IMG/VR virus record: IMGVR_UViG_3300034112_000721
Span: 48,532-112,531 of that record
DNA: 64,000 bases
Reading direction: 5' to 3' (one strand)
From: a virus
The translations under genes were made by a program, and so were the position numbers. Under the pieces are notes generated by a model. It saw nothing but the letters and a program-made list of their open reading frames with translations, searched no databases and had not been told where the DNA came from. Below, piece after piece: positions 5,101-59,306 of this stretch (positions are counted from its first letter, which is position 1; every line of letters starts with the position of its first letter).

Positions 5101-7578
5101 AGAGGCACTATTAAAATAGTTATTAAGTTGTGTATAAAAGTTAAATGCATTACTTGCAGCAGCATTTACTGTAAATGAATCAAGATCTCCTGGTGGTGGA
5201 TTTGGTGGTGTTAAGTTATTACCATTACCACCTGCAATATTCCAATAATCATATTTTTGATAAGGGACTTGAAAATCTGGAAGAGCTGGTGATGATATCT
5301 GTTTCTTACCCAATAAGTTTAATAAAGCATTTCCAAGACCAGCTATAATTGCAATATAAACCGCAGCATTACTCATCAACTGATTTTCAGGATGCTTATC
5401 TGGTATTACAAAAGAATGTACTGAGTTACCTTCTAAACTTCCATAGATTTTTAATTCAGTTTGGTTTATAAAAGGATTTCTAAAGCTAGTATCTGGAGAT
5501 GTAAATGTAAGAAGGTTTTTTGGTATACCTTGATTTACAAATGTTTCATTTCCATCTTTATCTATAGTGGTTGTTTTAATAAAAGGATCATTATAATAAT
5601 AATCATGATCTCCAATATTTGCAGTATTATCTAATGGTATTGAACAGTTAAATGGATAGTTTGCATATAGTCCTGTTCTATTACCTTTTGATTGCCCCTG
5701 TATAGGATAAGTCCTAAAGTTATTAATCATCCCTTTAGCAACTATACTAAGATTACCTTCTCTTGAACCTCTTAGTATTTCATATCCAACTATATTAGGA
5801 ATATCATTACCGTCATTATCTTTTGGGTAGATTATATTATTAAACTCTACACCCATTATTCTAATAAACTTTTTACCATCAGAAGCATTAGCATTTTCTA
5901 CTCTAAAGTGATATGTATCAGGTGTTAATGCATTATCTGGAAACTTGTGATGTCTAATAGGTTTACCACAAAGATCATATCTTGGATCTTTAGTAGCTGT
6001 CCAACACTGTGAACTTGAATTCCATATGTTAGGTTGGTTATCAGGATATATTTCTGTAGATTGCCAGTATCCCATTTTACCTTTAGCTAATACAACTCCT
6101 CCATCAGGTAATACTGGATAGTTAGGAAAGTATGTATCTGTCTGCCAAGCTGTATTTACAGTTTCAAATAATAATGTGTTATCTACAAAACTATTCTTAT
6201 CTGTATATGTATCAGCATCTTTTGTATTTGCAGGAACATTATCTGGATTTGGTGTTGGATAGTTTTCTTCTGGTCTTCCAGGAATGTGATAAGATGCAGA
6301 TTTATCTCCAGTATTGTATACCCATCTTATAAAGAAAGCATATACCTCATCTCTAAGATAACCTACTTTAGATCCTCCAGTAATATAATAGTCTTCAGGA
6401 TATTCAACTGACACCCATTTAGTATTTATCAAATTAGCAAGTGGCTGATAATTAAAATCAAATTTAGATGTGGGAGCAATTCTAAGTAAGTACTGTCCAA
6501 CATTAACTATCTGATCTGATTTCTCATATACTGGATTTAATAATGGTATAGCTGATGTTGGTATAGTTATTAATGTCTGTGGTATATCATCTAATAAGAT
6601 TGATGTTTCAGAAGTAGAATAATAACCAATCTGTTTTGCTTGAACATTTTCATTAATTGATCTAACTATTACTAATTCAAACTGCTCAAAGTTTTCAGTG
6701 TCTAAATCTAATGTTAATAGTAATGATCCTTGTGAAACATCATTAGGATTATATACTGGTTGAAGATTACTTGGAGAAAAATAATTAGTTACATTCTGAC
6801 CCTTAATAGAATATGCTACAACGGCAAAGTAAGTTCCATTTTCTAATGTACCTGTACCAGGTGCAATTGAAAGTTGAACGCATGGTGTCTGTACTAATGA
6901 TGCCAATCTTATTTTGTCACAATCTAAAAAGTTTAAATCTGTACATATTTTACAATCTCCAGGAGTACATTTTTGTTCCCATGCAGTAATTGGCCATAAT
7001 ACAGTTCCACTTGATGAAATATATCTATTATAATTTATACCTGCTGTAGCTTGATTAGAGCCACCCCATTGAAAAGATGAATCTGGCCATGTCTTTGGAT
7101 CACCAATATTTAAATATCTATCAGGATTTAAACCATCTGCCCAATACACTTCCCACTTACAATCTCCCTTTTGTCTAGAAGCTCCGGTAATTAAATTATA
7201 TGGACTAAAATTTAAACATGGTGCAGAAACAATTGGTCTATACAAACAATGTTCTTCTTCATATAAACCAATTTCAGAATTAACAGGTTTACCATTTACA
7301 GTAGCAACAGTAAATATAATCCACTTATCCGCATATAAATGTATAATACCAATAATAGCTTTATCACCCTGCATGGTCTCTCCACTTGTTCCGCAGAGAT
7401 AGTTTGAGTCCTCATTAGATAAAGTACCTAGGTTACCCTCATCAGTATTATTGACCATGTTTCTTGCATGTGTCCATAGTCCAGATGTTACAAATGATGG
7501 GTCTGTATCTTTATTTAGACCTTTAGAGAAACTATTTGTAATATTCTGAGTAGTATTTTGAAGACCTTTTTTAGCCAT
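2125..7578 (-). CDS. Tail stabilization / muzzle-type giant structural protein (1817 aa)
   Basis: This is the largest complete gene in the window. It is rich in Asn, Tyr, Thr, Pro and Gly and shows no enzyme motif, as expected for a beta-rich tail protein. Its N-terminus (SFSKGLNKDTDPSF, then a segment on arranged node text ending NYLCG) has the pattern of the tail stabilization proteins of crAss-like phages, and it lies directly after two ring-type proteins, as in those genomes. I infer that it forms the distal tail or muzzle. It starts one base inside the stop of the upstream 348-residue gene (TAATG), so translation is probably coupled. The structural role is fairly safe; the exact position in the tail is inferred. 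Confidence 0.8.
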   Translation of the reverse strand: MAKKGLQNTTQNITNSFSKGLNKDTDPSFVTSGLWTHARNMVNNTDEGNLGTLSNEDSNYLCGTSGETMQGDKAIIGIIHLYADKWIIFTVATVNGKPVNSEIGLYEEEHCLYRPIVSAPCLNFSPYNLITGASRQKGDCKWEVYWADGLNPDRYLNIGDPKTWPDSSFQWGGSNQATAGINYNRYISSSGTVLWPITAWEQKCTPGDCKICTDLNFLDCDKIRLASLVQTPCVQLSIAPGTGTLENGTYFAVVAYSIKGQNVTNYFSPSNLQPVYNPNDVSQGSLLLTLDLDTENFEQFELVIVRSINENVQAKQIGYYSTSETSILLDDIPQTLITIPTSAIPLLNPVYEKSDQIVNVGQYLLRIAPTSKFDFNYQPLANLINTKWVSVEYPEDYYITGGSKVGYLRDEVYAFFIRWVYNTGDKSASYHIPGRPEENYPTPNPDNVPANTKDADTYTDKNSFVDNTLLFETVNTAWQTDTYFPNYPVLPDGGVVLAKGKMGYWQSTEIYPDNQPNIWNSSSQCWTATKDPRYDLCGKPIRHHKFPDNALTPDTYHFRVENANASDGKKFIRIMGVEFNNIIYPKDNDGNDIPNIVGYEILRGSREGNLSIVAKGMINNFRTYPIQGQSKGNRTGLYANYPFNCSIPLDNTANIGDHDYYYNDPFIKTTTIDKDGNETFVNQGIPKNLLTFTSPDTSFRNPFINQTELKIYGSLEGNSVHSFVIPDKHPENQLMSNAAVYIAIIAGLGNALLNLLGKKQISSPALPDFQVPYQKYDYWNIAGGNGNNLTPPNPPPGDLDSFTVNAAASNAFNFYTQLNNYFNSASQQISGAITGPGNPASLTLEEIFETTAQSYANIGLYPPTTLITDYNTATVLNNLGLGVFATSAINIGVQLPYYFTEGFNTTLRIIQAFLPFRQYALQSLAHGFYARFVAPNTNFLKRFKIENGFYLSDRNQEVPDYLNGFGNFQRFTINNLSRPKTVFIRTSAPNTTYTSPTIAPTIGPQLVGTYVGSTQQIGFQEDNSLINLGKATDVPSFDMSFKNESLFKQFLGNIASHYVGLKYNVQNQYGRIDSIKQVVATTCEQKFDPNNIISQPTSGNCPLNGQVFHKVLPTSEIIFGGDTYINRFTEKNTMLFFYNWLYNLPDGTIWNYALYNNIPTARYWMNTAPYSKDENPIAAGGNIATTIADIISLLTPQPTFGTGPMPKGYYNLDNDNYDRQNDTEGNYPGFLSVKDSYMYLANSGVRDFFVESNVLVDFRSQGTLQSQQPYIPYQYTDLRQLFDMNPEVITKGNFYNYDYSLSVTKFFTQYLSAGSTQGANYDPQVAELCFTYYPNRALYSLYQDDQSYDNNWLIYLPLNYVQFNDKITTVKPVGMTGMIFTFPTTGPLFYQGIDTLQTLSGKKVTIGDGGLFSNPPQSAVNADAPFEYGSSQNIRSVIYSPAGLYYASMNQGKLFAYGEGIKEISQNGLKWWFSLFLPYKLTEDFPDYPHQDNPVAGIGVQAGYDTRSSILYFTKKDYQLRKDIGKVSYNPETNKFNYLGVNYPLGHPNVFVDASWTVSYDPKLQVFISYHDWHPDLVFSSKETLFTVKGNTIWRHNDVCDDFCNFYGTQYPFEIEYPINTGSAPSIVRSIEYTLECYRYSQFNCVDQFHVLDANFSQAVISNTEQVSGYLNLNIFPKNNITLSLQYPKLNQSNLSSFDILFSKEENKYRFNQYWDITKDRGEFPIGSDYPPTGPLVPGTTQLLGNYSEQFIWNTEPNGYIKTLNNANLNYAKLDTQRKKFRHYLNYLFLSKLATEQERDINFILKVVNSKNEMSIR

Positions 7579-17094: not shown

Positions 17095-17724
17095 TTATCC
17101 AGCTACTTCTGCCATATCATTATCTAATAGTCTTAAAGCTAATGGATCTGTACCAAATGTTCTTAGTTTATCCATCCAAGTTTGCATCTTATCATGCTCT
17201 TCAACTTGTTCTTTTAAGTATCCTAAACATAATTCATAAAGAATATGATCCTTATTTGACATTGCAAAATCTGCCATTTTTTTAATTTGAGTAGATACTT
17301 CTATCTCATGCTCATAAGATAACCTTACAATTTCTGGAAGACTTCCTGAAAAATCTTGTTGTGGTTGATCTAATCTTGGAGTTAATGGTTGTACTCCAAA
17401 TGATAATAAATACTTACGTGCAATATCAGCATGAGTTAATTCTTCATCTGAATACTTTCTCCATAGAGCAGCAGCACCTTTGAATCCTTTTTCATCTAAC
17501 CACATTGTCATTGACATATAAATTCTAGAAGAATACTCTTCTTGTTGAATTCTATAATTTAAATAGTCAACAGCATTATCTGTAATTAATGGGTTCATAG
17601 TAGCTACATCTGGAACTTCTTTTGATGCACCAGAACTTGGTTTATCAATACTAGGAATTCCTGTAGATGGCGGAAGTTTTACTACACTTGTATCTAATCT
17701 TTTTAATAATCTTTTCTGTTCCAT
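17095..17724 (-). CDS. Ferritin-family protein with complete ferroxidase ligands (209 aa)
   Basis: Residues 50-205 align with bacterial ferritin FtnA. The pattern QEEYSSRIY (E62), then DEELTHAD (E94, E95, H98), YEHE (E140) and KEQVEEH (E172, Q173, E175, E176) supplies the known ferroxidase-centre ligands. A 48-residue Pro/Ser/Lys-rich N-terminal tail is not part of ferritins. The four-helix fold would oxidise and store iron. The gene sits in the late virion block between a ring protein and an abundant structural protein, 6 bases after the former. It may protect or load iron in the infected cell, or be virion-associated through its tail; both are inferences. Confidence 0.88.
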   Translation of the reverse strand: MEQKRLLKRLDTSVVKLPPSTGIPSIDKPSSGASKEVPDVATMNPLITDNAVDYLNYRIQQEEYSSRIYMSMTMWLDEKGFKGAAALWRKYSDEELTHADIARKYLLSFGVQPLTPRLDQPQQDFSGSLPEIVRLSYEHEIEVSTQIKKMADFAMSNKDHILYELCLGYLKEQVEEHDKMQTWMDKLRTFGTDPLALRLLDNDMAEVAG

Positions 17725-43770: not shown

Positions 43771-43790
43771 TACTTCTTTCTACTAGACAT
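43771..43790 (+). promoter_or_regulatory. Repeated early motif, copy 1
   Basis: TACTTCTTTCTACTAGACAT, followed by GTTGAAT. Copy 2 lies 69 bases on with the same continuation, so the two form a tandem pair ahead of the first rightward gene. Confidence 0.6.
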
Positions 43791-43839
43791 GTTGAATTGT
43801 AGAATAATTTGTAAATGTTTTACAGCTGGAAGTTTCTGG

Positions 43840-43858
43840 TACTTCTTTCTACAGATGT
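43840..43858 (+). promoter_or_regulatory. Repeated early motif, copy 2
   Basis: TACTTCTTTCTACAGATGT then TGAATCATTAAA. The ATG of the first rightward gene is 40 bases after the start of the motif. A 6-bp hairpin (TGTAAA/TTTACA, 43810-43824) lies between copies 1 and 2. Confidence 0.62.
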
Positions 43859-43879
43859 TGAATCATTAAAATTTTTATC

Positions 43880-44110
43880 ATGAAAAAGTTACTTGTTACT
43901 GTTATGTTCTTTGCTGTTTTGTTTGGTGTACCAATGATGTTTTATTGGGTAGTGTTCTATATATTATATATGGGCTTTGCGGTAGATATTGTTATTAGCT
44001 TCTTGATATCTCTTATGGGTAGTGTGACCATGTTTCTTGGACTTGTTAAGGTTGCTGAGAAGTTAGTTAATAAGGGTTTGGATATATACATTATTGATAT
44101 GAGAAGATAA
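43880..44110 (+). CDS. Small membrane protein, first rightward gene (76 aa)
   Basis: Two or three hydrophobic helices fill most of the protein (KLLVTVMFFAVLFGVPMMFY; a second at residues 33-58), ending in a basic DMRR. It is alone between the tandem motif copies and a terminator. An early host-membrane function, such as superinfection control, is a guess. Confidence 0.6.
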   Translation: MKKLLVTVMFFAVLFGVPMMFYWVVFYILYMGFAVDIVISFLISLMGSVTMFLGLVKVAEKLVNKGLDIYIIDMRR

Positions 44111-44123
44111 GGGCTTTGCCCTT
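44109..44123 (+). terminator. Terminator T1
   Basis: AAGGGC-TTT-GCCCTT then TCTTCTT. It begins in the stop codon of the 76-residue gene and is directly followed by motif copy 3. Confidence 0.75.
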
Positions 44124-44131
44124 TCTTCTTG

Positions 44132-44153
44132 TACTTCTTCTTACTTGTTTAGA
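44132..44153 (+). promoter_or_regulatory. Repeated early motif, copy 3
   Basis: TACTTCTTCTTACTTGTTTA, then GA. It is upstream of candidate structured RNA 1. Confidence 0.62.
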
Positions 44154-44254
44154 ATATAACAAGGAATGTTTCCTGGGGGAGCAAGGCCAGCCGTGGCTAC
44201 TGCTTAATATACCTACGAGAGGAAGTCCTACGGAAACACTTGTTATATTTTTTT
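44154..44254 (+). ncRNA. Candidate structured RNA 1
   Basis: A 10-bp closing helix (ATATAACAAG at 44154-44163 with CTTGTTATAT at 44239-44248), a GAA bulge, then a 7-bp helix (TGTTTCC/GGAAACA) enclose about 155 bases less these arms; inside is a hairpin AGCA..GCCA/TGGC..TGCT (44180-44204). The 3' closing arm runs into eight T, so the helix also serves as terminator. No start codon opens a usable frame. It shares CAAGGAATGT and a GGnGGAG core with candidate RNA 2. Role unknown. Confidence 0.6.
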
Positions 44255-44256
44255 TA

Positions 44257-44278
44257 TACTTCTTCTTACTTGTGTTAA
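44257..44278 (+). promoter_or_regulatory. Repeated early motif, copy 4
   Basis: TACTTCTTCTTACTTGTGTT, then AAACTATTAAAATT. It starts inside the T-tract end of RNA 1; the 49-residue gene begins 41 bases later. Confidence 0.62.
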
Positions 44279-44297
44279 ACTATTAAAATTATTTATT

Positions 44298-44447
44298 ATG
44301 AAAGATTTTGTTAACTATTTGATTGCTGTTGTATCTATGGGTTGTATAACAGGTTTACTTGTTTCTATGGGATCTCAGATCTTATTAGCTATGGGAATTA
44401 TGTCTTTATTTTGGGCAGGTATGTTTGCGCCAATGTTAAGGGGATAA
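44298..44447 (+). CDS. Small membrane protein (49 aa)
   Basis: The frame MKDFVNYLIAVVSMGCITGL continues as one long Met/Leu/Gly-rich hydrophobic stretch and ends FAPMLRG. The A/T-rich leader TTATTATG matches the other small genes here. Its stop codon lies in the loop of the next terminator. Confidence 0.55.
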   Translation: MKDFVNYLIAVVSMGCITGLLVSMGSQILLAMGIMSLFWAGMFAPMLRG

Positions 44448-44454
44448 TTCCCCT
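44439..44454 (+). terminator. Terminator T2
   Basis: AGGGGA-TAAT-TCCCCT then TTTAT. The loop contains the TAA stop of the 49-residue gene. Confidence 0.75.
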
Positions 44455-44458
44455 TTTA

Positions 44459-44480
44459 TACTTCTTTGTACTTATTAAGA
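44459..44480 (+). promoter_or_regulatory. Repeated early motif, copy 5
   Basis: TACTTCTTTGTACTTATTAA, then GAACCAATAAAATTTT. It begins five bases after terminator T2. Confidence 0.65.
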
Positions 44481-44499
44481 ACCAATAAAATTTTATGCT

Positions 44500-44574
44500 A
44501 TGGGAACTGTAACTTATGTTATTATCAATGGAGTTTTAACTGTTAAGTCTTGGGTAAAGAACCCCAATGCTTAA
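44500..44574 (+). CDS. Possible microprotein (24 aa)
   Basis: The frame MGTVTYVIINGVLTVKSWVK ends NPNA. It is the only frame between motif copy 5 and terminator T3, with the same type of leader as its neighbours. Because of length it is not certain that it is translated. Confidence 0.4.
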   Translation: MGTVTYVIINGVLTVKSWVKNPNA

Positions 44575-44585
44575 TGGTTTAAGTT

Positions 44586-44605
44586 AAGGGAGAGCAATCT
44601 CCCTT
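44586..44605 (+). terminator. Terminator T3
   Basis: AAGGGAGA-GCAA-TCTCCCTT then TTCTTTTG: 8-bp stem with a four-base loop, ahead of motif copy 6. Confidence 0.8.
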
Positions 44606-44613
44606 TTCTTTTG

Positions 44614-44635
44614 TACTTATTTATACATATTAGAA
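44614..44635 (+). promoter_or_regulatory. Repeated early motif, copy 6 (divergent)
   Basis: TACTTATTTATACATATTAG, then AAACCAATAAATT. It has lost the TCTT core but keeps TACTT, TA and the AACCAATAAA continuation of copy 5. Confidence 0.5.
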
Positions 44636-44654
44636 ACCAATAAATTATTTACTT

Positions 44655-44822
44655 ATGGAAGAGACCAGATTAGTTATGACTTGGGAAGAATACAAGTTAC
44701 TATTAGATGTATTAAACCATGTATATCACCAGACAGATTACAAACCAATAAATGATTTGTATGTCAAGTTATACATGCAGATGAATGCGCGTAAAGTAGA
44801 AGATATAGAGTTACCCTTTTAA
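44655..44822 (+). CDS. Small acidic helical protein (55 aa)
   Basis: The frame MEETRLVMTWEEYKLLLDVL continues with a helix and ends EDIELPF. A compact helical fold is likely. It is alone between motif copy 6 and terminator T4. Unknown early role. Confidence 0.6.
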   Translation: MEETRLVMTWEEYKLLLDVLNHVYHQTDYKPINDLYVKLYMQMNARKVEDIELPF

Positions 44823-44830
44823 TAGGGTAA
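44811..44830 (+). terminator. Terminator T4
   Basis: TTACCC/GGGTAA stem overlapping the last codons of the 55-residue gene; its T-tract (TTCTTTCT) is part of motif copy 7. Confidence 0.6.
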
Positions 44831-44850
44831 TTCTTTCTACTTATTTAATA
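44831..44850 (+). promoter_or_regulatory. Repeated early motif, copy 7
   Basis: TTCTTTCTACTTATTTAATA. The first TAC is replaced, the rest keeps the pattern. Candidate RNA 2 follows. Confidence 0.52.
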
Positions 44851-44856
44851 AAAGTT

Positions 44857-44973
44857 AGCCAAGGAATGTAAAGTGTTTTACCGGTGGAGAAAGTAGACTT
44901 TGGTGCTGATAATCAAGCACTTACAAAAAGCAAGTTTTTACACAAATTAATACCGCACAAAGCCTTGCTTATT
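44857..44973 (+). ncRNA. Candidate structured RNA 2
   Basis: The 5' arm AGC(C)AAGG (44857-44864) pairs with CCTTGCT (44963-44969), enclosing hairpins GTAAA/TTTAC, AAAGT/ACTTT and GTGCT/AGCAC. Like RNA 1, it begins CAAGGAATGT, has CCGGTGGAGAAAG near its start and TTAATACC before the 3' arm, and comes directly after a motif copy and before a terminator. No good frame is present. Role unknown. Confidence 0.52.
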
Positions 44974-44992
44974 TTGTCCTTCGGACAGCTTT
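44974..44992 (+). terminator. Terminator T5
   Basis: TGTCC-TTC-GGACA, then GCTTTTATT. The sequence is close to T7 (45430-45450), which shows that terminator and motif were copied together. Confidence 0.75.
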
Positions 44993-44997
44993 TATTA

Positions 44998-45020
44998 TAC
45001 TTCTTTTTACTGTTTTAGAT
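44998..45020 (+). promoter_or_regulatory. Repeated early motif, copy 8
   Basis: TACTTCTTTTTACTGTTTTA, then GATTATTAACC. The 111-residue gene starts 47 bases after the start of the motif. Confidence 0.65.
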
Positions 45021-45044
45021 TATTAACCTTTTAATTTATTTATT

Positions 45045-45380
45045 ATGTCTAAAATTAATTTTAGTGAAACAAAGTCCTTGGTTGAATTCTTTGGTCAAAT
45101 ATCTGCTACTGATTTGCAGATTTGTCAAAGTAAAAGAACAGGTGGGTTATATGTAGTATTCAAATGTGCTGATGGTACAGAACAGAATGCTATGTTGGCA
45201 AAGTCTATATCTAATATAGATGCTAACAATGCTGCTGATTTGCAAGTATCTTGGATAGAAGGTACTACAGAAACAGGTAACCCATTGGAAGGTTTTATGA
45301 TTCATCCAACAGGTGAGCGTAAAGTTGTATCCAACTTTAGCCTTGCAGACCTTACTGCAAAGGTTGGTGCTATTGGTTAA
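45045..45380 (+). CDS. Early protein of unknown role (111 aa)
   Basis: A small folded protein with beta and helical parts (GGLYVVFKCADGTEQNAMLA; a C-terminal helix FSLADLTAKVGA). It has its own motif copy and the strongest terminator in the array, so it is an independent, probably highly expressed early gene. No family is recognised; nucleic-acid binding or host takeover are guesses. Confidence 0.65.
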   Translation: MSKINFSETKSLVEFFGQISATDLQICQSKRTGGLYVVFKCADGTEQNAMLAKSISNIDANNAADLQVSWIEGTTETGNPLEGFMIHPTGERKVVSNFSLADLTAKVGAIG

Positions 45381-45391
45381 TAGTACAACAA

Positions 45392-45425
45392 GAGATAGTG
45401 TCAGAAATGACACTATCTTTTTTTT
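45392..45425 (+). terminator. Terminator T6
   Basis: A perfect 10-bp stem (GATAGTGTCA/TGACACTATC) with a GAAA tetraloop, followed by nine T. It ends the 111-residue gene transcript. Confidence 0.95.
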
Positions 45426-45429
45426 ATAT

Positions 45430-45450
45430 TGCCTTCGGCAGCTTTTGTTT
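45430..45450 (+). terminator. Terminator T7
   Basis: TGCC-TTC-GGCA, then GCTTTTGTTT. A second hairpin directly after T6, matching T5 in sequence, and adjoining motif copy 9. Confidence 0.6.
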
Positions 45451-45470
45451 TACTTCTTTCTACTTAGTGT
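45451..45470 (+). promoter_or_regulatory. Repeated early motif, copy 9
   Basis: TACTTCTTTCTACTTAGTGT. After about 45 more bases comes a run of eight T (45512-45519 region) with no frame between, so the product may be a short RNA. Confidence 0.58.
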
Positions 45471-47514: not shown

Positions 47515-47603
47515 TTTTATTGTTAGCTATATATTGCATTATTTTATTTTCTGTAAGCAGTTTTACTTGATATTATCACGTATTTTTACTACAGCTATAA
47601 TAA

Positions 47604-47876
47604 ATGCAATATCAGTTACCAAATGGAAAGGTTATATACCTAACAATTGAAGAGTATTTAGAACTTACAGATCTAGATATACAATTCTTAATGTCCATTG
47701 ATTATGGTGAACACATTATAGATCCTTTTATTGGTTCTGCTGTTGAGAAAAACACCAGAGAAAAATTTATTGATATAGACTTTCTTCCACTAGAAGATTA
47801 TGACCTTAATGATATACCATCAGATGATTGTCCATTTGATGATATCATTGACTTAGAGGATCCACTGGATAACTAA
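47604..47876 (+). CDS. Very acidic small protein (90 aa)
   Basis: Many Asp and Glu, notably in the last 40 residues (DDCPFDDIIDLEDPLDN end), with a folded start (YQLPNGKVIYLTIEEYLELT). Such strong negative charge suggests DNA mimicry or binding to a basic host protein, but this is a guess. Its stop is in an inverted repeat. Confidence 0.62.
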   Translation: MQYQLPNGKVIYLTIEEYLELTDLDIQFLMSIDYGEHIIDPFIGSAVEKNTREKFIDIDFLPLEDYDLNDIPSDDCPFDDIIDLEDPLDN

Positions 47877-48509: not shown

Positions 48510-48533
48510 TTTTTATTATTATGATTTATTAAT

Positions 48534-49429: not shown

Positions 49430-50173
49430 ATGATTATGAATATGATTGGAAAAGAACTAAAAGTAAACACAACTACAGATTATTCAAAGTTTGCTGTACT
49501 ACCTATGAACAGAGGTATTGATAGCAAGCATGTACAAAAGATGATTGCTAGTATCCGTAAAATGGGAGTACTAAGATGTGTTATCACAACAACCACTAAT
49601 ATAATAGAGGGTGAAAATAAAAGATACATTATTGATGGTCAGCATCTTGCTACTGCATTAGAAAGAGAAGAAATGCCCATTCCTTATATTGAGATTAATG
49701 TAGAATCAGAACAAGATTTAGTTGAAAAAATGGCTTATCTTAATAACTCATCTAAGTCTTGGGATTTAATGAATTACATTAATGCATGGAAAATGATTCA
49801 GCCAGACTACATGAAGTTATTCAAGTGGAAGAACATGTATGACATAGAAATAACTATGTTAGCTGCAATTGGTATTAATAATGCTGGTTTTAAGAGCAGT
49901 TCACAAAGCATAAAGACAGGTGATTTTAGAATTACTAATCCAAATGCAGAAGATATGTGTAAAGCATTTAATGATATCTTCTTAAAGATTGGTATGTCTG
50001 AGCGGTCAGTAAAGTTTCAGTTTCTCACAGCATTCTTACAAGCTTATGGTAATTATAACCATGAGAAGGTAATTGCTAATCTTGATAAACATCTTAAAAC
50101 TGTAAAGCTTATGATGAATGGAGATGAAACTGCTACTTATATCAGACGTAAAATATTTAATTTACCAAAATAA
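49430..50173 (+). CDS. ParB/sulfiredoxin-fold protein (247 aa)
   Basis: Residues 20-110 follow the ParB N-terminal domain: LPMNRGIDSKHVQKMIASIR, then RYIIDGQHLATALERE with the DGQH core (69-72). The C-terminal part is helical and basic. ParB-like phage proteins may bind or nick DNA, or modify DNA partners. It overlaps the helicase gene by one base, so the two may work together in early DNA metabolism. Confidence 0.75.
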   Translation: MIMNMIGKELKVNTTTDYSKFAVLPMNRGIDSKHVQKMIASIRKMGVLRCVITTTTNIIEGENKRYIIDGQHLATALEREEMPIPYIEINVESEQDLVEKMAYLNNSSKSWDLMNYINAWKMIQPDYMKLFKWKNMYDIEITMLAAIGINNAGFKSSSQSIKTGDFRITNPNAEDMCKAFNDIFLKIGMSERSVKFQFLTAFLQAYGNYNHEKVIANLDKHLKTVKLMMNGDETATYIRRKIFNLPK

Positions 50174-51267
50174 TGGAAAGACAGGAAATACAAGATGAAG
50201 CTCTAAAAGCAACTGAGGGAAAGCAAAGGTGCACCATAGTACTTGGTACGGGTGTAGGCAAAACTCTTGTTGGTCTAAAGCACATGGCAAAATATTACTC
50301 TCCATTGCAAAGTATTCTGATTGTTGCTCCTAAACTTTCTATCATAAGCTCATGGAGATATGAAGCTGAGAAATTTGGATTAAGTAAAGTGCTTGAGGGT
50401 GCTACTTTTTCTACTTATCTGAGCTTAAATAAACATAATCCTAATGATTATGATGCAGTTTATTTTGATGAAGTCCACAGTTTATTAGATAGTCACAGAT
50501 CTTTTCTTAATAGTTATGCGGGTAGAGTACTGGGTTTAACCGGTACTCCACCCAAGCATAAGAACTCTGAGAAAGGTAGATTAGTATCAGAATATTGTCC
50601 AGTTGTCTACACTTTTAAGGCAGATGATGCAATAGAAAATGGTATTATTAATGACTATCAAATAATTGTGCATGAAATTAATCTTGACACTGCCAAGAAC
50701 TATAAAGTATCAACACAGAAAGGAAGTTTTATGACATCTGAGTTGCAAAATTATGGTTACTGGGGTACAAGGATTGATACAGGATCAGGGCAACCTCATA
50801 TACTTAGAGTAATGAGAATGAAAGCTATGATGGAGTATCCAAGCAAAGAAAGATATGCAAAAGCTCTGTTATCTAGTATAACAAGCAAGTGCATTGTATT
50901 TGCTAATACTCAAGAACAAGCTGATAGAATGTGTACACATAGCTATCATAGTAACAATCAAGATTCTGAAGAGAATCTACTTGATTTTAAAAATGGTAAG
51001 ATAAATAAACTTTCATGTGTATTGCAATTAAATGAAGGTGTAAACATACCAGGTTTAAAACAAGGTATTATTATGCATGCATATGGTAATGAACGTAAAG
51101 CTAGTCAGAGAATAGGAAGACTTTTGCGTTTAAATCCAGATGATAAAGCTATTGTACATATACTATGCTATGTAGGTACAGTTGATGAGAAATGGGTCAA
51201 GGATGCATTAGAAGACTTTGATCAGACTAAAATAGTATGGAGAAGTTATAGTTTGCAACCAACATAA
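50173..51267 (+). CDS. SF2 DEAD/SNF2-type helicase (364 aa)
   Basis: Motif I is VLGTGVGKT (23-31), motif II is YFDEVHS (DEVH 99-102), motif III is GLTGTPP (121-127), and motif VI is KASQRIGRLLRLNP (near 311-325). Both RecA-like lobes are present. This matches the SNF2-type helicase of crAss-like early modules. It would unwind or remodel DNA during replication or recombination. Confidence 0.9.
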   Translation: MERQEIQDEALKATEGKQRCTIVLGTGVGKTLVGLKHMAKYYSPLQSILIVAPKLSIISSWRYEAEKFGLSKVLEGATFSTYLSLNKHNPNDYDAVYFDEVHSLLDSHRSFLNSYAGRVLGLTGTPPKHKNSEKGRLVSEYCPVVYTFKADDAIENGIINDYQIIVHEINLDTAKNYKVSTQKGSFMTSELQNYGYWGTRIDTGSGQPHILRVMRMKAMMEYPSKERYAKALLSSITSKCIVFANTQEQADRMCTHSYHSNNQDSEENLLDFKNGKINKLSCVLQLNEGVNIPGLKQGIIMHAYGNERKASQRIGRLLRLNPDDKAIVHILCYVGTVDEKWVKDALEDFDQTKIVWRSYSLQPT

Positions 51268-51283
51268 TTCTTATATTTATTAT

Positions 51284-51538
51284 ATGGAAGACTTAGCAAC
51301 ACACAAACTTGTTTTGCATAATGATGACAAGAATTCATTTTTATATGTAATTGCTTGTCTTATAAGATTTTGTGAGCACCAACCAACACAAGCAGAGCAA
51401 TGTGCATTGCTTGTGCATGAGATGGGAAGATGCACTGTAAAATCTGGAGACTACTTAAAGATGCTTGAGATTTCAGAATCTTTGCGTAATTTAGATCTTA
51501 AAACATCAGTAGAACAATATGAGGGCAATTTGCATTGA
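51284..51538 (+). CDS. clpS: ClpS-like protease adaptor (84 aa)
   Basis: The opening HKLVLHNDDKNSFLYVIACL matches the ClpS start (hydrophobic strand, NDD, helix), followed by QAEQCALLVHEMGRCTVKSG, which matches the H-x-x-G-x-x helix-strand of ClpS, and a final helix. ClpS delivers N-degron proteins to ClpAP and blocks other ClpA substrates. In a phage it may redirect host proteolysis. Start at ATG 51284 with the A/T leader. Confidence 0.82.
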   Translation: MEDLATHKLVLHNDDKNSFLYVIACLIRFCEHQPTQAEQCALLVHEMGRCTVKSGDYLKMLEISESLRNLDLKTSVEQYEGNLH

Positions 51539-51794
51539 TGCTTCAAATAAACCAAGTAAGATACCAGATAGTGAGTGGATTGTAGAGGGTGAAGTTTATA
51601 CTATTACAAGAATAGTAAGGATGGGATTACAACAAAACAAGTTTGGCGTTCTATTAAAAGAAATAAAACTATCTACTAGCTCATTCCCTTATGAAGTTTA
51701 TGATGCTGACAGATTTTTACCAATTGATTTATTAGCTGAAGCATTTAAAAAAGAAGAAGAAACAGTTAAAGAAGCTGATTTAGAATTAATTTAA
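51519..51794 (+). CDS. Small SH3-like beta protein (91 aa)
   Basis: A beta-barrel-like part (WIVEGEVYTITRIVRMGLQQ; FGVLLKEIKLS) and an acidic helical end. Similar short proteins are frequent in phages, without known role. It starts within the last 20 bases of the ClpS-like gene. Confidence 0.6.
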   Translation: MRAICIDASNKPSKIPDSEWIVEGEVYTITRIVRMGLQQNKFGVLLKEIKLSTSSFPYEVYDADRFLPIDLLAEAFKKEEETVKEADLELI

Positions 51795-51799
51795 ATTTT

Positions 51800-51985
51800 A
51801 TGGAAGAGAGACACTGGGTGATGTTATACAACATAGCATTGTTGTACATCATAATTGGACAGATGTTTGCTTTATATTTCTGGTATGTATTTGCACAGAA
51901 CCACGGATTTTTAGCATCAGTATTTATTGGACCAATTGTAGGTGAGATCAAAGGTCTCTTGTTCCCATTTTTTATATGGACATGA
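51800..51985 (+). CDS. Small membrane protein (61 aa)
   Basis: Two hydrophobic helices (VMLYNIALLYIIIGQMFALY and VFIGPIVGEIKGLLFPFFIW) with few charges. Stop overlaps the DnaA-like gene by 10 bases. Unknown role. Confidence 0.55.
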   Translation: MEERHWVMLYNIALLYIIIGQMFALYFWYVFAQNHGFLASVFIGPIVGEIKGLLFPFFIWT

Positions 51986-52476
51986 GAGATGATGTATTAG
52001 AGCTCTACAAAGTTGCAAATAAAGATATTGTAGATGTCATTGAGAAGTTTAATCTCACAGCAAAGACCAGAAAAAGAGGTATAGTATATAAAAGATACTA
52101 TTTATACTATGTACTGACATCAAAAAGATTTCTTAGTTATAGTATGACCGGTAAGTTTTTTGGTAAGGATCATTCAACCATCTGTCATGGACTTAAGTTA
52201 CATGATTACTGGTGGAAGAAAAAAGATATGAATTATCTAACTGAAATCAATCCTGTATATGAGTTACTAAAGAATGAGAGAATAGATGATGGTCTGTTTG
52301 GTTTTGAGGTTCAACATCTTGGTGAGGAAGAAACAAAGGTCATTATAACAGGTAACTTTGATTGGAGAATATTAGAAAAATTGCCCAGTAGGATGGCAAG
52401 AGAAGAATTAATTAAAATATTTAAAGAGTATGGGAAGAATGAAAGAGATCTATATTCAGATAATGAATGCAAATGA
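51976..52476 (+). CDS. DnaA domain-IV-like DNA-binding protein (166 aa)
   Basis: Residues 35-82 follow the C-terminal domain of DnaA, with YSMTGKFFGKDHSTICHGLK (55-74) matching the DnaA signature GxxDHSTVLHA. There is no AAA+ domain. The C-terminal 75 residues are unlike DnaA. It could recognise a DnaA-box-like site to start phage replication, or compete with host DnaA. Confidence 0.75.
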   Translation: MDMRDDVLELYKVANKDIVDVIEKFNLTAKTRKRGIVYKRYYLYYVLTSKRFLSYSMTGKFFGKDHSTICHGLKLHDYWWKKKDMNYLTEINPVYELLKNERIDDGLFGFEVQHLGEEETKVIITGNFDWRILEKLPSRMAREELIKIFKEYGKNERDLYSDNECK

Positions 52477-52660
52477 TGGTATACCAGAAGAGATGACCAT
52501 TCAGGACTTTTTAAAAATGAGAGATTTAAACATTTATCATTGGAAAGAATATGAAAGAGCGCAAGAAAGAGCCAGATTACAACTTAATAAACAAGAAGAT
52601 CTGGGAGAGACTACAAAAGATTCTGAAGGAGAATCCATCAGAAGAGAAGCAAACAATTAA
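52463..52660 (+). CDS. Small charged helical protein (65 aa)
   Basis: I prefer ATG 52463 (MNANDGIPEEMTIQDFLKMR), which overlaps the upstream gene less than ATG 52430. Glu/Arg/Gln-rich helices fill the rest. Unknown role. Confidence 0.5.
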   Translation: MNANDGIPEEMTIQDFLKMRDLNIYHWKEYERAQERARLQLNKQEDLGETTKDSEGESIRREANN

Positions 52661-54819: not shown

Positions 54820-55035
54820 ATGATTATTTTAAGAAAAGGAGAGGAAAGGAAGGGACACAGAGTATTAATTGTAAAAGAGAATGAGCATACCGGAACTAAG
54901 TTTGCAGTGCAAGAAAAGGGCAAGTTCTTATTCTTCTTTACTAAATGGACATTTGTTAGAGACCAAGCTGGGAATGTAAAACTATTTGATTCTAACAAGA
55001 ACGCAAGTGCTTATATCAACTTTAAAAGAAGGTGA
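54820..55035 (+). CDS. Small basic beta protein (71 aa)
   Basis: A basic beta-rich protein (HRVLIVKENEHTGTKFAVQE; FLFFFTKWTFVRDQAG) ending KRR. It overlaps the radical SAM gene by four bases and so may be its partner. Role unknown. Confidence 0.58.
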   Translation: MIILRKGEERKGHRVLIVKENEHTGTKFAVQEKGKFLFFFTKWTFVRDQAGNVKLFDSNKNASAYINFKRR

Positions 55036-55913
55036 TAGAAAAAGTCACGCGGAAAACATTTAAAATAAGACCAAGTGGAAGGAGCACTGATTTCATTGCT
55101 CCTTCTTTTGGTTTTGGCTGTTTGTATAACTGTAGTTATTGCTACATGAAAAGACATAAGCCAGAAGGACTGTCTGTAGCAACAAATACTATGGATATCC
55201 TGACAGAGATTAATTCACATGTTTGGTTTGCTGATGTAGAAAAACCTAATCAAACACATCCAGATTATATTACTTATGATATCTCTTGTAATGAAGACTT
55301 TGCTTTGCATGCTAAGTATCATGACTGGAAAGCAATCTTTAAGTTCTTTAGAGACCATCCACTTGCTATGGGTTCATTTGCTACTAAGTATGTAAATACT
55401 GATTTGCTTCAGTTTAATCCAGAGTATAAGATTAGAATTAGATTTAGTCTTATGCCTGAAAAGATTAGGCAAATATTAGAACCTAACACAAGTACAATAG
55501 AAGAGAGATTAAGTGCAGTAACTTTATTTAGTATGGTAAATTATGAAGTACATTTAAACTTTAGTCCTGTAGTTGTATATGACGGGTGGTTGGATGATTA
55601 TAAAGAACTCTTTGAGAGAATAAACTGGCATGCACACACAAGGAATGGTGTACCAGAAAATCTTGCATTTGACGGTTGTAAAGCTGAAGTAATATTTCTT
55701 ACACATAACAAAGATAAACATGAGTACAATGAGAAAAATAAGATCATGGGTGAAGAATTACTTTGGACACCCAGCATACAGGAATCCAAAGAATCCCAGT
55801 ATGGAGGAAAGAACATTAGGTATGCACAGGGATGTAAATCACATTACATTAAACAATTTACAGAGTTACATGATGCCATTATTCCCTGGAACACTATTAG
55901 ATATATATTTTAG
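55032..55913 (+). CDS. Spore-photoproduct-lyase-like radical SAM protein (293 aa)
   Basis: Cys30, Cys34 and Cys37 in FGFGCLYNCSYCYMKRHKP form the CxxxCxxC cluster for the [4Fe-4S]-SAM centre. The following strand order (TYDISCNEDFALHAKYHDWK; LLQFNPEYKIRIRFSLMPEK) and length fit the spore photoproduct lyase family, which repairs a thymine dimer in spores. The family is proposed from pattern; the substrate in a phage is not known. GTG/ATG choice: ATG at 55032 overlaps the upstream stop. Confidence 0.78.
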   Translation: MIEKVTRKTFKIRPSGRSTDFIAPSFGFGCLYNCSYCYMKRHKPEGLSVATNTMDILTEINSHVWFADVEKPNQTHPDYITYDISCNEDFALHAKYHDWKAIFKFFRDHPLAMGSFATKYVNTDLLQFNPEYKIRIRFSLMPEKIRQILEPNTSTIEERLSAVTLFSMVNYEVHLNFSPVVVYDGWLDDYKELFERINWHAHTRNGVPENLAFDGCKAEVIFLTHNKDKHEYNEKNKIMGEELLWTPSIQESKESQYGGKNIRYAQGCKSHYIKQFTELHDAIIPWNTIRYIF

Positions 55914-58604: not shown

Positions 58605-59306
58605 ATGATAATAGAAGAGTATAAACAAAAAATATTTGAGATGTTGGAACCAAGTGGTTGGGGTAAGGTTCTTAAACCTTATATATTTAGTATTGAATTT
58701 GAAAACATACTTACAAGTTTATATGACTTAAGTAATGCAAACAAAAGATTTACACCGCCACTAAAAGATGCATTTAATGCATTTTTAGAGTGTCCCTATA
58801 ATGAATTAAAACTAGTAATAGTTGGTCAAGATCCTTATCCACAGTTGGGAGTTGCCGATGGTATTGCTTTTAGTTGTAGTAATACAGGAGTTCTACAGCC
58901 CAGTTTAAGATATATGTTTAATGAAATCAATAAAACTATTTATGGTGGCACTACTCTTTGTACTGATGTTGACTTGAGAAGATGGTCTAACCAAGGAGTT
59001 CTGATGCTTAATACATCTTTGACAACTCAAGTTGAGAAGATTGGTCAGCACTATGATATCTGGAAAGGATTTGTTTCATATTTATTTGACTATCTGGATC
59101 ACAATAAAAAAGATCTTGTGTATCTTTACATGGGAAAGAAAGCTCAAGAATGGGCAGACTTTGTTGGTGATAATAATCACAAGATATTTACAAGTCATCC
59201 GGCAAGTGCAGCATATAACAAACAAAAAGAATGGAATTCAGATAATGCATTCTTAAAGGCACAATATGCTGTTGCAGAGAGAACTGGATTTATAATTAGT
59301 TGGTAG
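58605..59306 (+). CDS. ung: Uracil-DNA glycosylase (233 aa)
   Basis: The family-1 motifs are complete: VIVGQDPYPQLG (74-82; catalytic Asp76), GIAFSC (86-91), LMLNTSLT (133-140) and TSHPASAAY (197-204; His198). It removes uracil from DNA, and its presence fits crAss-like early modules and a thymine- rather than uracil-containing genome. It has a leader with no Shine-Dalgarno and sits upstream of the replication genes. Confidence 0.96.
   Translation: MIIEEYKQKIFEMLEPSGWGKVLKPYIFSIEFENILTSLYDLSNANKRFTPPLKDAFNAFLECPYNELKLVIVGQDPYPQLGVADGIAFSCSNTGVLQPSLRYMFNEINKTIYGGTTLCTDVDLRRWSNQGVLMLNTSLTTQVEKIGQHYDIWKGFVSYLFDYLDHNKKDLVYLYMGKKAQEWADFVGDNNHKIFTSHPASAAYNKQKEWNSDNAFLKAQYAVAERTGFIISW

Follow-up and report, generated by a model that had tools for sequence, protein, structure and literature searches.

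An orphan DnaA domain IV without the ATPase in a crAss-like phage, a predicted reader of DnaA-box-like sites

A crAss-like phage encodes a 166-aa protein, P0001, in which a stand-alone DnaA domain IV is joined to a small second module and the AAA+ ATPase is missing. The protein keeps most of the residues with which DnaA contacts its box, its gene is under purifying selection, and its family is spread across phages and, in small phages, linked to replication genes. Our best explanation, to which we assign a probability of about 0.42, is that P0001 is an ATP-independent accessory or regulatory factor that reads box-like sites in an early or replication operon, and not an initiator. It would bind double-stranded DnaA-box-like sites without ATP. 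Origin melting and helicase loading as carried out by DnaA should be impossible for a protein lacking the AAA+ motor, and we therefore cast it in an accessory or regulatory role, in which occupation of a few box-like sites would affect expression of the early or replication operon, or the setting of phage replication. DNA binding is predicted and very likely; like it, the target sites and the effect are deduced from sequence.

The window analyzed here is a 64,000-nt stretch that runs from position 48,532 to the end (112,531) of a virus record of 112,531 bp; coordinates are those of the window unless a locus is named (Table 1).

Table 1. Features of the orphan gene and its surroundings in the window
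Feature	Coordinates	Strand	Evidence and remarks
Conserved 28-bp block TTGATATTATCACGTATTTTTACTACAG	47567..47594	+	Shortly before the 90-aa ORF at 47604; four crAss-like records
ParB-like protein, conserved neighbor	49430..50173	+	phrog_12305, E 1.1e-16; same cluster in 6/8 crAss-like loci
Superfamily-2 helicase, conserved neighbor	50173..51267	+	phrog_16, E 3.7e-42; ResIII and Helicase_C; 8/8 crAss-like loci
84-aa conserved neighbor protein	51284..51538	+	8/8 crAss-like loci
91-aa conserved neighbor protein	51519..51794	+	8/8 crAss-like loci
CDS, orphan DnaA domain IV protein P0001, 166 aa	51976..52476	+	One intact ORF, ATG at 51976 to stop at 52476; single copy in the record
Bac_DnaA_C match, residues 23-74	52042..52197	+	Pfam E 3.2e-7; hhalign to cellular DnaA domain IV 98.7%
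R32, counterpart of R399, the minor-groove arginine in E. coli DnaA (presumed numbering)	52069..52071	+	Unchanged throughout an alignment with cellular DnaA
Recognition-helix signature FGKDHSTICHG, residues 62-72	52159..52191	+	H66 kept in 128/129 (133 rows, 4 gaps)
C-terminal module, residues ~108-151	52297..52428	+	Predicted two strands and two helices; alignment A5
76-aa conserved neighbor, overlapping the 3′ end of the orphan gene	52430..52660	+	8/8 crAss-like loci

Domain identification

From the signature segment, the initial annotation had called this gene a DnaA domain IV that lacks the ATPase and continues into a new C-terminus, and our analysis agrees on each point. The domain occupies residues ~14-102, where Pfam, profile-profile and predicted-fold matches concur, and we regard its identification as secure. 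The Pfam match to PF08299 (Bac_DnaA_C) scores 30.7 bits where the curated cut-off is 31.5 bits, a shortfall of 0.8 bit, and five relatives likewise score under that cut-off. A profile of 28 family sequences (A2) was aligned by hhalign with one of 16 cellular DnaA C-termini at 98.7% (E 3.2e-16 over 83 columns). AlphaFold2 modeled the DNA-binding part with confidence (block means of 88-97 for residues 11-100). When this model was compared with solved folds by VIA-align, the top six were all DnaA (Z 10.2, 9.6, 8.7, 8.2, 8.0 and 7.8), led by 3pvp_A (2.7 Å across 88 residues) and 1j1v_A, while the best helix-turn-helix protein other than DnaA reached Z 7.7; Foldseek also ranked DnaA first, yet with an E value of only 0.15.

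An AAA+ ATPase (domain III) was not found by Pfam search, and with only ~30 residues ahead of the domain there is too little sequence for one to fit. From residue ~103 onward a different C-terminus follows, a second module whose ITGN motif is common to unrelated small-phage relatives (alignment A5); in more distant relatives the C-terminus differs. Modeled by itself this module has a mean pLDDT of 64.7, too poor for a structure search, so its fold stays a prediction only. Codon substitution ratios between the gene and those of six relatives are 0.10-0.17, from which we conclude that it is under purifying selection and is not a decaying remnant.

DnaA-box contact residues

The box contacts of E. 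coli DnaA are given as R399, P423, D433, H434, T435 and H439 (PMC7561715), and R399 is described as reading the minor groove, with R399A failing at box binding (PMC5742627). The signature of P0001, FFGKDHSTICHG, covers residues 61-72. Five residues of P0001, R32, D65, H66, S67 and H71, are identical or similar to R399, D433, H434, T435 and H439, taking R32 to be the counterpart of R399; P423 is not kept. Residues R32, R40, G59, F62 and H66 are invariant when P0001 is aligned with cellular DnaA.

Among the 133 distinct proteins of the family, arginine accounts for 126 of the 127 residues present at the R399 position (six gaps) and likewise at the R407 position, and histidine for 128 of 129 at the H434 position. 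The D433 position is aspartate in 97 of 129, and the T435 position is divided among S (65), A (44), C (10) and T (8); since these two positions vary, DNA specificity may differ within the family. Three relatives encoded upstream of a primase (L163, L179 and L180) have the DH[ST]T signature turned into THGS, and the repeats at L163 are the same as at loci where that signature is intact.

Carrier phage and family distribution

Terminase, portal and head proteins identify the carrier of P0001 as a crAss-like phage. Its terminase matched 130 phage records, with gut cr-phages and Flavobacterium phages among the matches listed, reference phages that we take to be crAss-like; portal and head families of crAss-like type were matched as well. 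Within the structural gene block lies a ferritin-domain protein (17098-17724, minus strand; PF00210, E 3.5e-26). Elsewhere in the window a spore photoproduct lyase family protein (55032-55913, plus strand; PF20903, E 8.7e-23) and a UDG-superfamily gene (at 58605; E 1.4e-11) are possible phage DNA-repair genes.

One scan yielded 24 loci of the orphan family, and a profile scan of viral contigs yielded 151 relatives, the best 80 of which were kept; at that stage 102 ORF matches from all loci gathered reduced to 64 distinct proteins. The family occurs both in crAss-like phages and in small phages (contigs of ~28-33 kb) with unrelated terminase or portal, and therefore crosses phage lineages. In annotated phages, homologues were found neither for P0001 (at E up to 0.01) nor for the orphan of L071, and those of the L019 orphan were weak (best E 3e-3). 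A scan of bacterial genomes returned mostly long proteins (66 of 76 among the matches listed are ORFs of at least 350 aa), consistent with ordinary DnaA. In viral structure libraries many phage proteins are already called 'Chromosomal replication initiator, DnaA C-terminal', so proteins of this kind are known by name; a literature search, largely of papers outside subscription, turned up no work on stand-alone DnaA domain IV proteins of phages.

Gene neighborhood

In crAss-like records the orphan gene sits within a conserved run of genes for the ParB-like protein, the superfamily-2 helicase and the 84-aa, 91-aa and 76-aa proteins (Table 1), ~8 kb before a DnaB-like gene and not adjoining it. 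In small phages its neighbor is a BT4734_N/PriCT_1 primase or a Prim-Pol/DUF3987 primase-helicase. A third small-phage type has the orphan before an O-like initiator, followed by helicase, NinG, Erf and exonuclease. Ten-base repeats lie within the O-like replication gene itself in L080 (5409-5528) and L084 (about 5734-5835), an arrangement that resembles the origin of phage lambda.

To evaluate linkage, two scans (80 of 342 matches kept in the second) supplied 145 loci with one or the other of the two small-phage primases, and 130 of these loci have more than 450 bp upstream of the primase. A family gene stands upstream at 114 of these 130 loci by a lenient profile and at 92 by a strict one; at 75 of the 92 strict loci its end is no more than 350 bp from the primase.

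DnaA boxes in the carrier phage

The proposal that the protein marks a phage origin, for which clustered boxes would be the sign, was not borne out in the 112.5-kb phage or three relatives, where TTWTNCACA boxes are unclustered (at most two per 500 bp in the four records). The counts were 12, 11, 8 and 10, against shuffle means of 20.2, 21.2, 22.1 and 16.9; the window alone has nine, against a first-order mean of 13.4 or 11.9 in two calculations. An apparent depletion (41 boxes in the four records, 64.9 expected at second order) was set aside, 24 of 300 permuted motifs being equally low. Nor was a convincing repeat array found in these four crAss-like records. A TACTCACA cluster conserved in three of them was rejected as lying inside a coding gene, and an enrichment of intergenic 7- and 8-mers was discarded because the large 'gaps' were giant genes cut at piece borders. 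The ATCACGT block has one site per record ahead of the operon and one to four sites in all. The TTGATATTATCACGTATTTTTACTACAG block is near-identical in all four records, with one site each; it is a weak lead, possibly the leader of the gene run containing the orphan. At 43771-45463 there are eight TACTTCTTTCTAC-like words, all on the plus strand and several lying between a hairpin-like sequence, which they directly follow, and a small ORF, with one more copy in the rest of the record and none in the three related records; they look like terminator-promoter cassettes at a switch of strand and GC skew.

A near-canonical contact set together with unclustered targets in the phage would make the universal host boxes a natural target. 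P0001 might then be a competitor of DnaA, occupying boxes at oriC and in the dnaA regulon and blocking or diverting host initiation. Interference of a cryptic prophage with host DnaA has a precedent in YfdR, which is reported to bind DnaA (PMC4776307). We nonetheless think such competition unlikely: the tight linkage to phage primase genes needs no host target, and the T435 position is S in P0001 and A, C or another residue in many relatives.

A box pair at a promoter-like site

One group of small phages has two DnaA-box matches ~20 bp apart just before the promoter-like TATCTTTG, and the run of genes downstream of it includes the one for the orphan. The promoter pattern was held by 23 of the 30 named loci, and among these 23 aligned loci the first box is present in 22 and the second in 18, with changes mainly at degenerate positions. 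The pair is confined to this group; the 18-kb L019 has one box, and L023 and L088 have none. Its reader could be host DnaA or the orphan.

Such a conserved pair at a promoter-like site is what one would expect of a protein that only regulates transcription, of phage or host genes, and has no part in replication, and typical regulators are small, swappable DNA-binding proteins. Several phage types, though, persistently place the gene directly before primase or O-like genes, and we hold a purely transcriptional role to be distinctly unlikely.

The accessory or regulatory factor that we prefer has its own difficulties: its phage has neither a box cluster nor a repeat array, the crAss-like orphan does not stand beside the DnaB-like gene, P423 is lost, and the box pair is found in one group.

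Repeats beside the gene in small phages

The gap between orphan and primase is rich in short repeats in some small phages: ATCGTC occurs seven times in the gap and nowhere else in L071 (10.4 kb), with 7 versus 0 in L045 and 4 versus 0 in L049; GCGTCA has 5 versus 1 in L098 and TTTCACA 8 versus 6 in L019. In 92 of the 114 orphan-bearing loci, the strongest repeat cluster is the one that precedes the primase. The protein could on these grounds be an iteron-binding initiator that marks the phage origin by recognizing the repeats beside its gene.

Of the 17 loci that lack the orphan, however, 9 also have their strongest cluster at this position, and a 63.7-kb record without a detectable orphan has 15 repeats. 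Of the 16 loci with no orphan upstream of the primase, four are in records with one elsewhere and 12 are in records with no Pfam match at all, a count to be read with caution as orphan-free records may be fragments and Pfam can miss diverged members (at least one, L163, was missed). Repeat similarity follows primase distance (rho 0.81 for 33 non-redundant loci, 0.83 for a strict set of 27) far more closely than orphan distance (0.35-0.37 and 0.47), and the partial correlation of repeats with the orphan is 0.09 and 0.11, with 89 and 83 of 500 permutations giving values at least as high; the non-independence of the pairs and the shortness of the orphan keep this comparison from being decisive. 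A comparison of the repeats with WTNCACA collapsed to three linked clusters and says nothing. With no repeat array found in crAss-like phages either, we judge an iteron-binding initiator decidedly improbable.

Because the repeats track the primase and occur without the orphan, the primase is the likelier reader of these repeats, and both the orphan-free loci and the distance comparison speak against their being binding sites of the orphan. Origin-like arrays at L071 (5499-5672), L019 (10423-10594) and L098 (5353-5519), and upstream of the primase in L230, L231 and L239, adjoin BT4734_N/PriCT and Prim-Pol/DUF3987 primase-helicase genes; array sequence tracks the primase, and the neighboring primase possibly reads its own origin.

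A chance signature or a functionless, decayed piece of DnaA, for which the Pfam score marginally under the cut-off might be cited, is refuted by the hhalign result, the DnaA fold match, the substitution ratio and the 151 relatives on viral contigs, and has next to no probability.

Significance

The start of replication in crAss-like phages and their handling of host replication are poorly known, and a conserved, motor-less predicted reader of DnaA boxes is a concrete protein for testing. The finding that the origin-like repeats of the small phages go along with the primase rather than with its DnaA-like neighbor makes possible a two-way test of which protein reads the origin. More broadly, and as a rather doubtful extension, ATPase-free DnaA-box readers may be exchanged among crAss-like and unrelated phages to take over DnaA-box sites, the targeting domain of an initiator having become a control protein that acts both on host boxes and at the early promoter of the phage itself.

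Comparison with known systems

The phage proteins already named 'DnaA C-terminal' (from uncultured Caudovirales and from relatives of Tenacibaculum phage Gundel_1 and Flavobacterium phage tooticki6-1) are, like P0001, stand-alone, at 97-190 aa, and similar in predicted fold; identity with P0001 is 13-32% among the matches listed, and their function is a database name only. The alpha protein of phage satellite P4 combines primase-helicase activity with binding to origin repeats and is a possible model for the neighboring primases of the small phages; on that model the origin reader would be the primase and not the orphan. With DnaA domain IV (PF08299; 1j1v, 3pvp) P0001 shares the fold, the helix-turn-helix signature and the arginine and histidine contacts. 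It differs from cellular DnaA in having no domains I-III and in carrying the extra C-terminal module, and from the E. coli protein in having Y at the Q408 position and G at the A440 position, in addition to the loss of P423.
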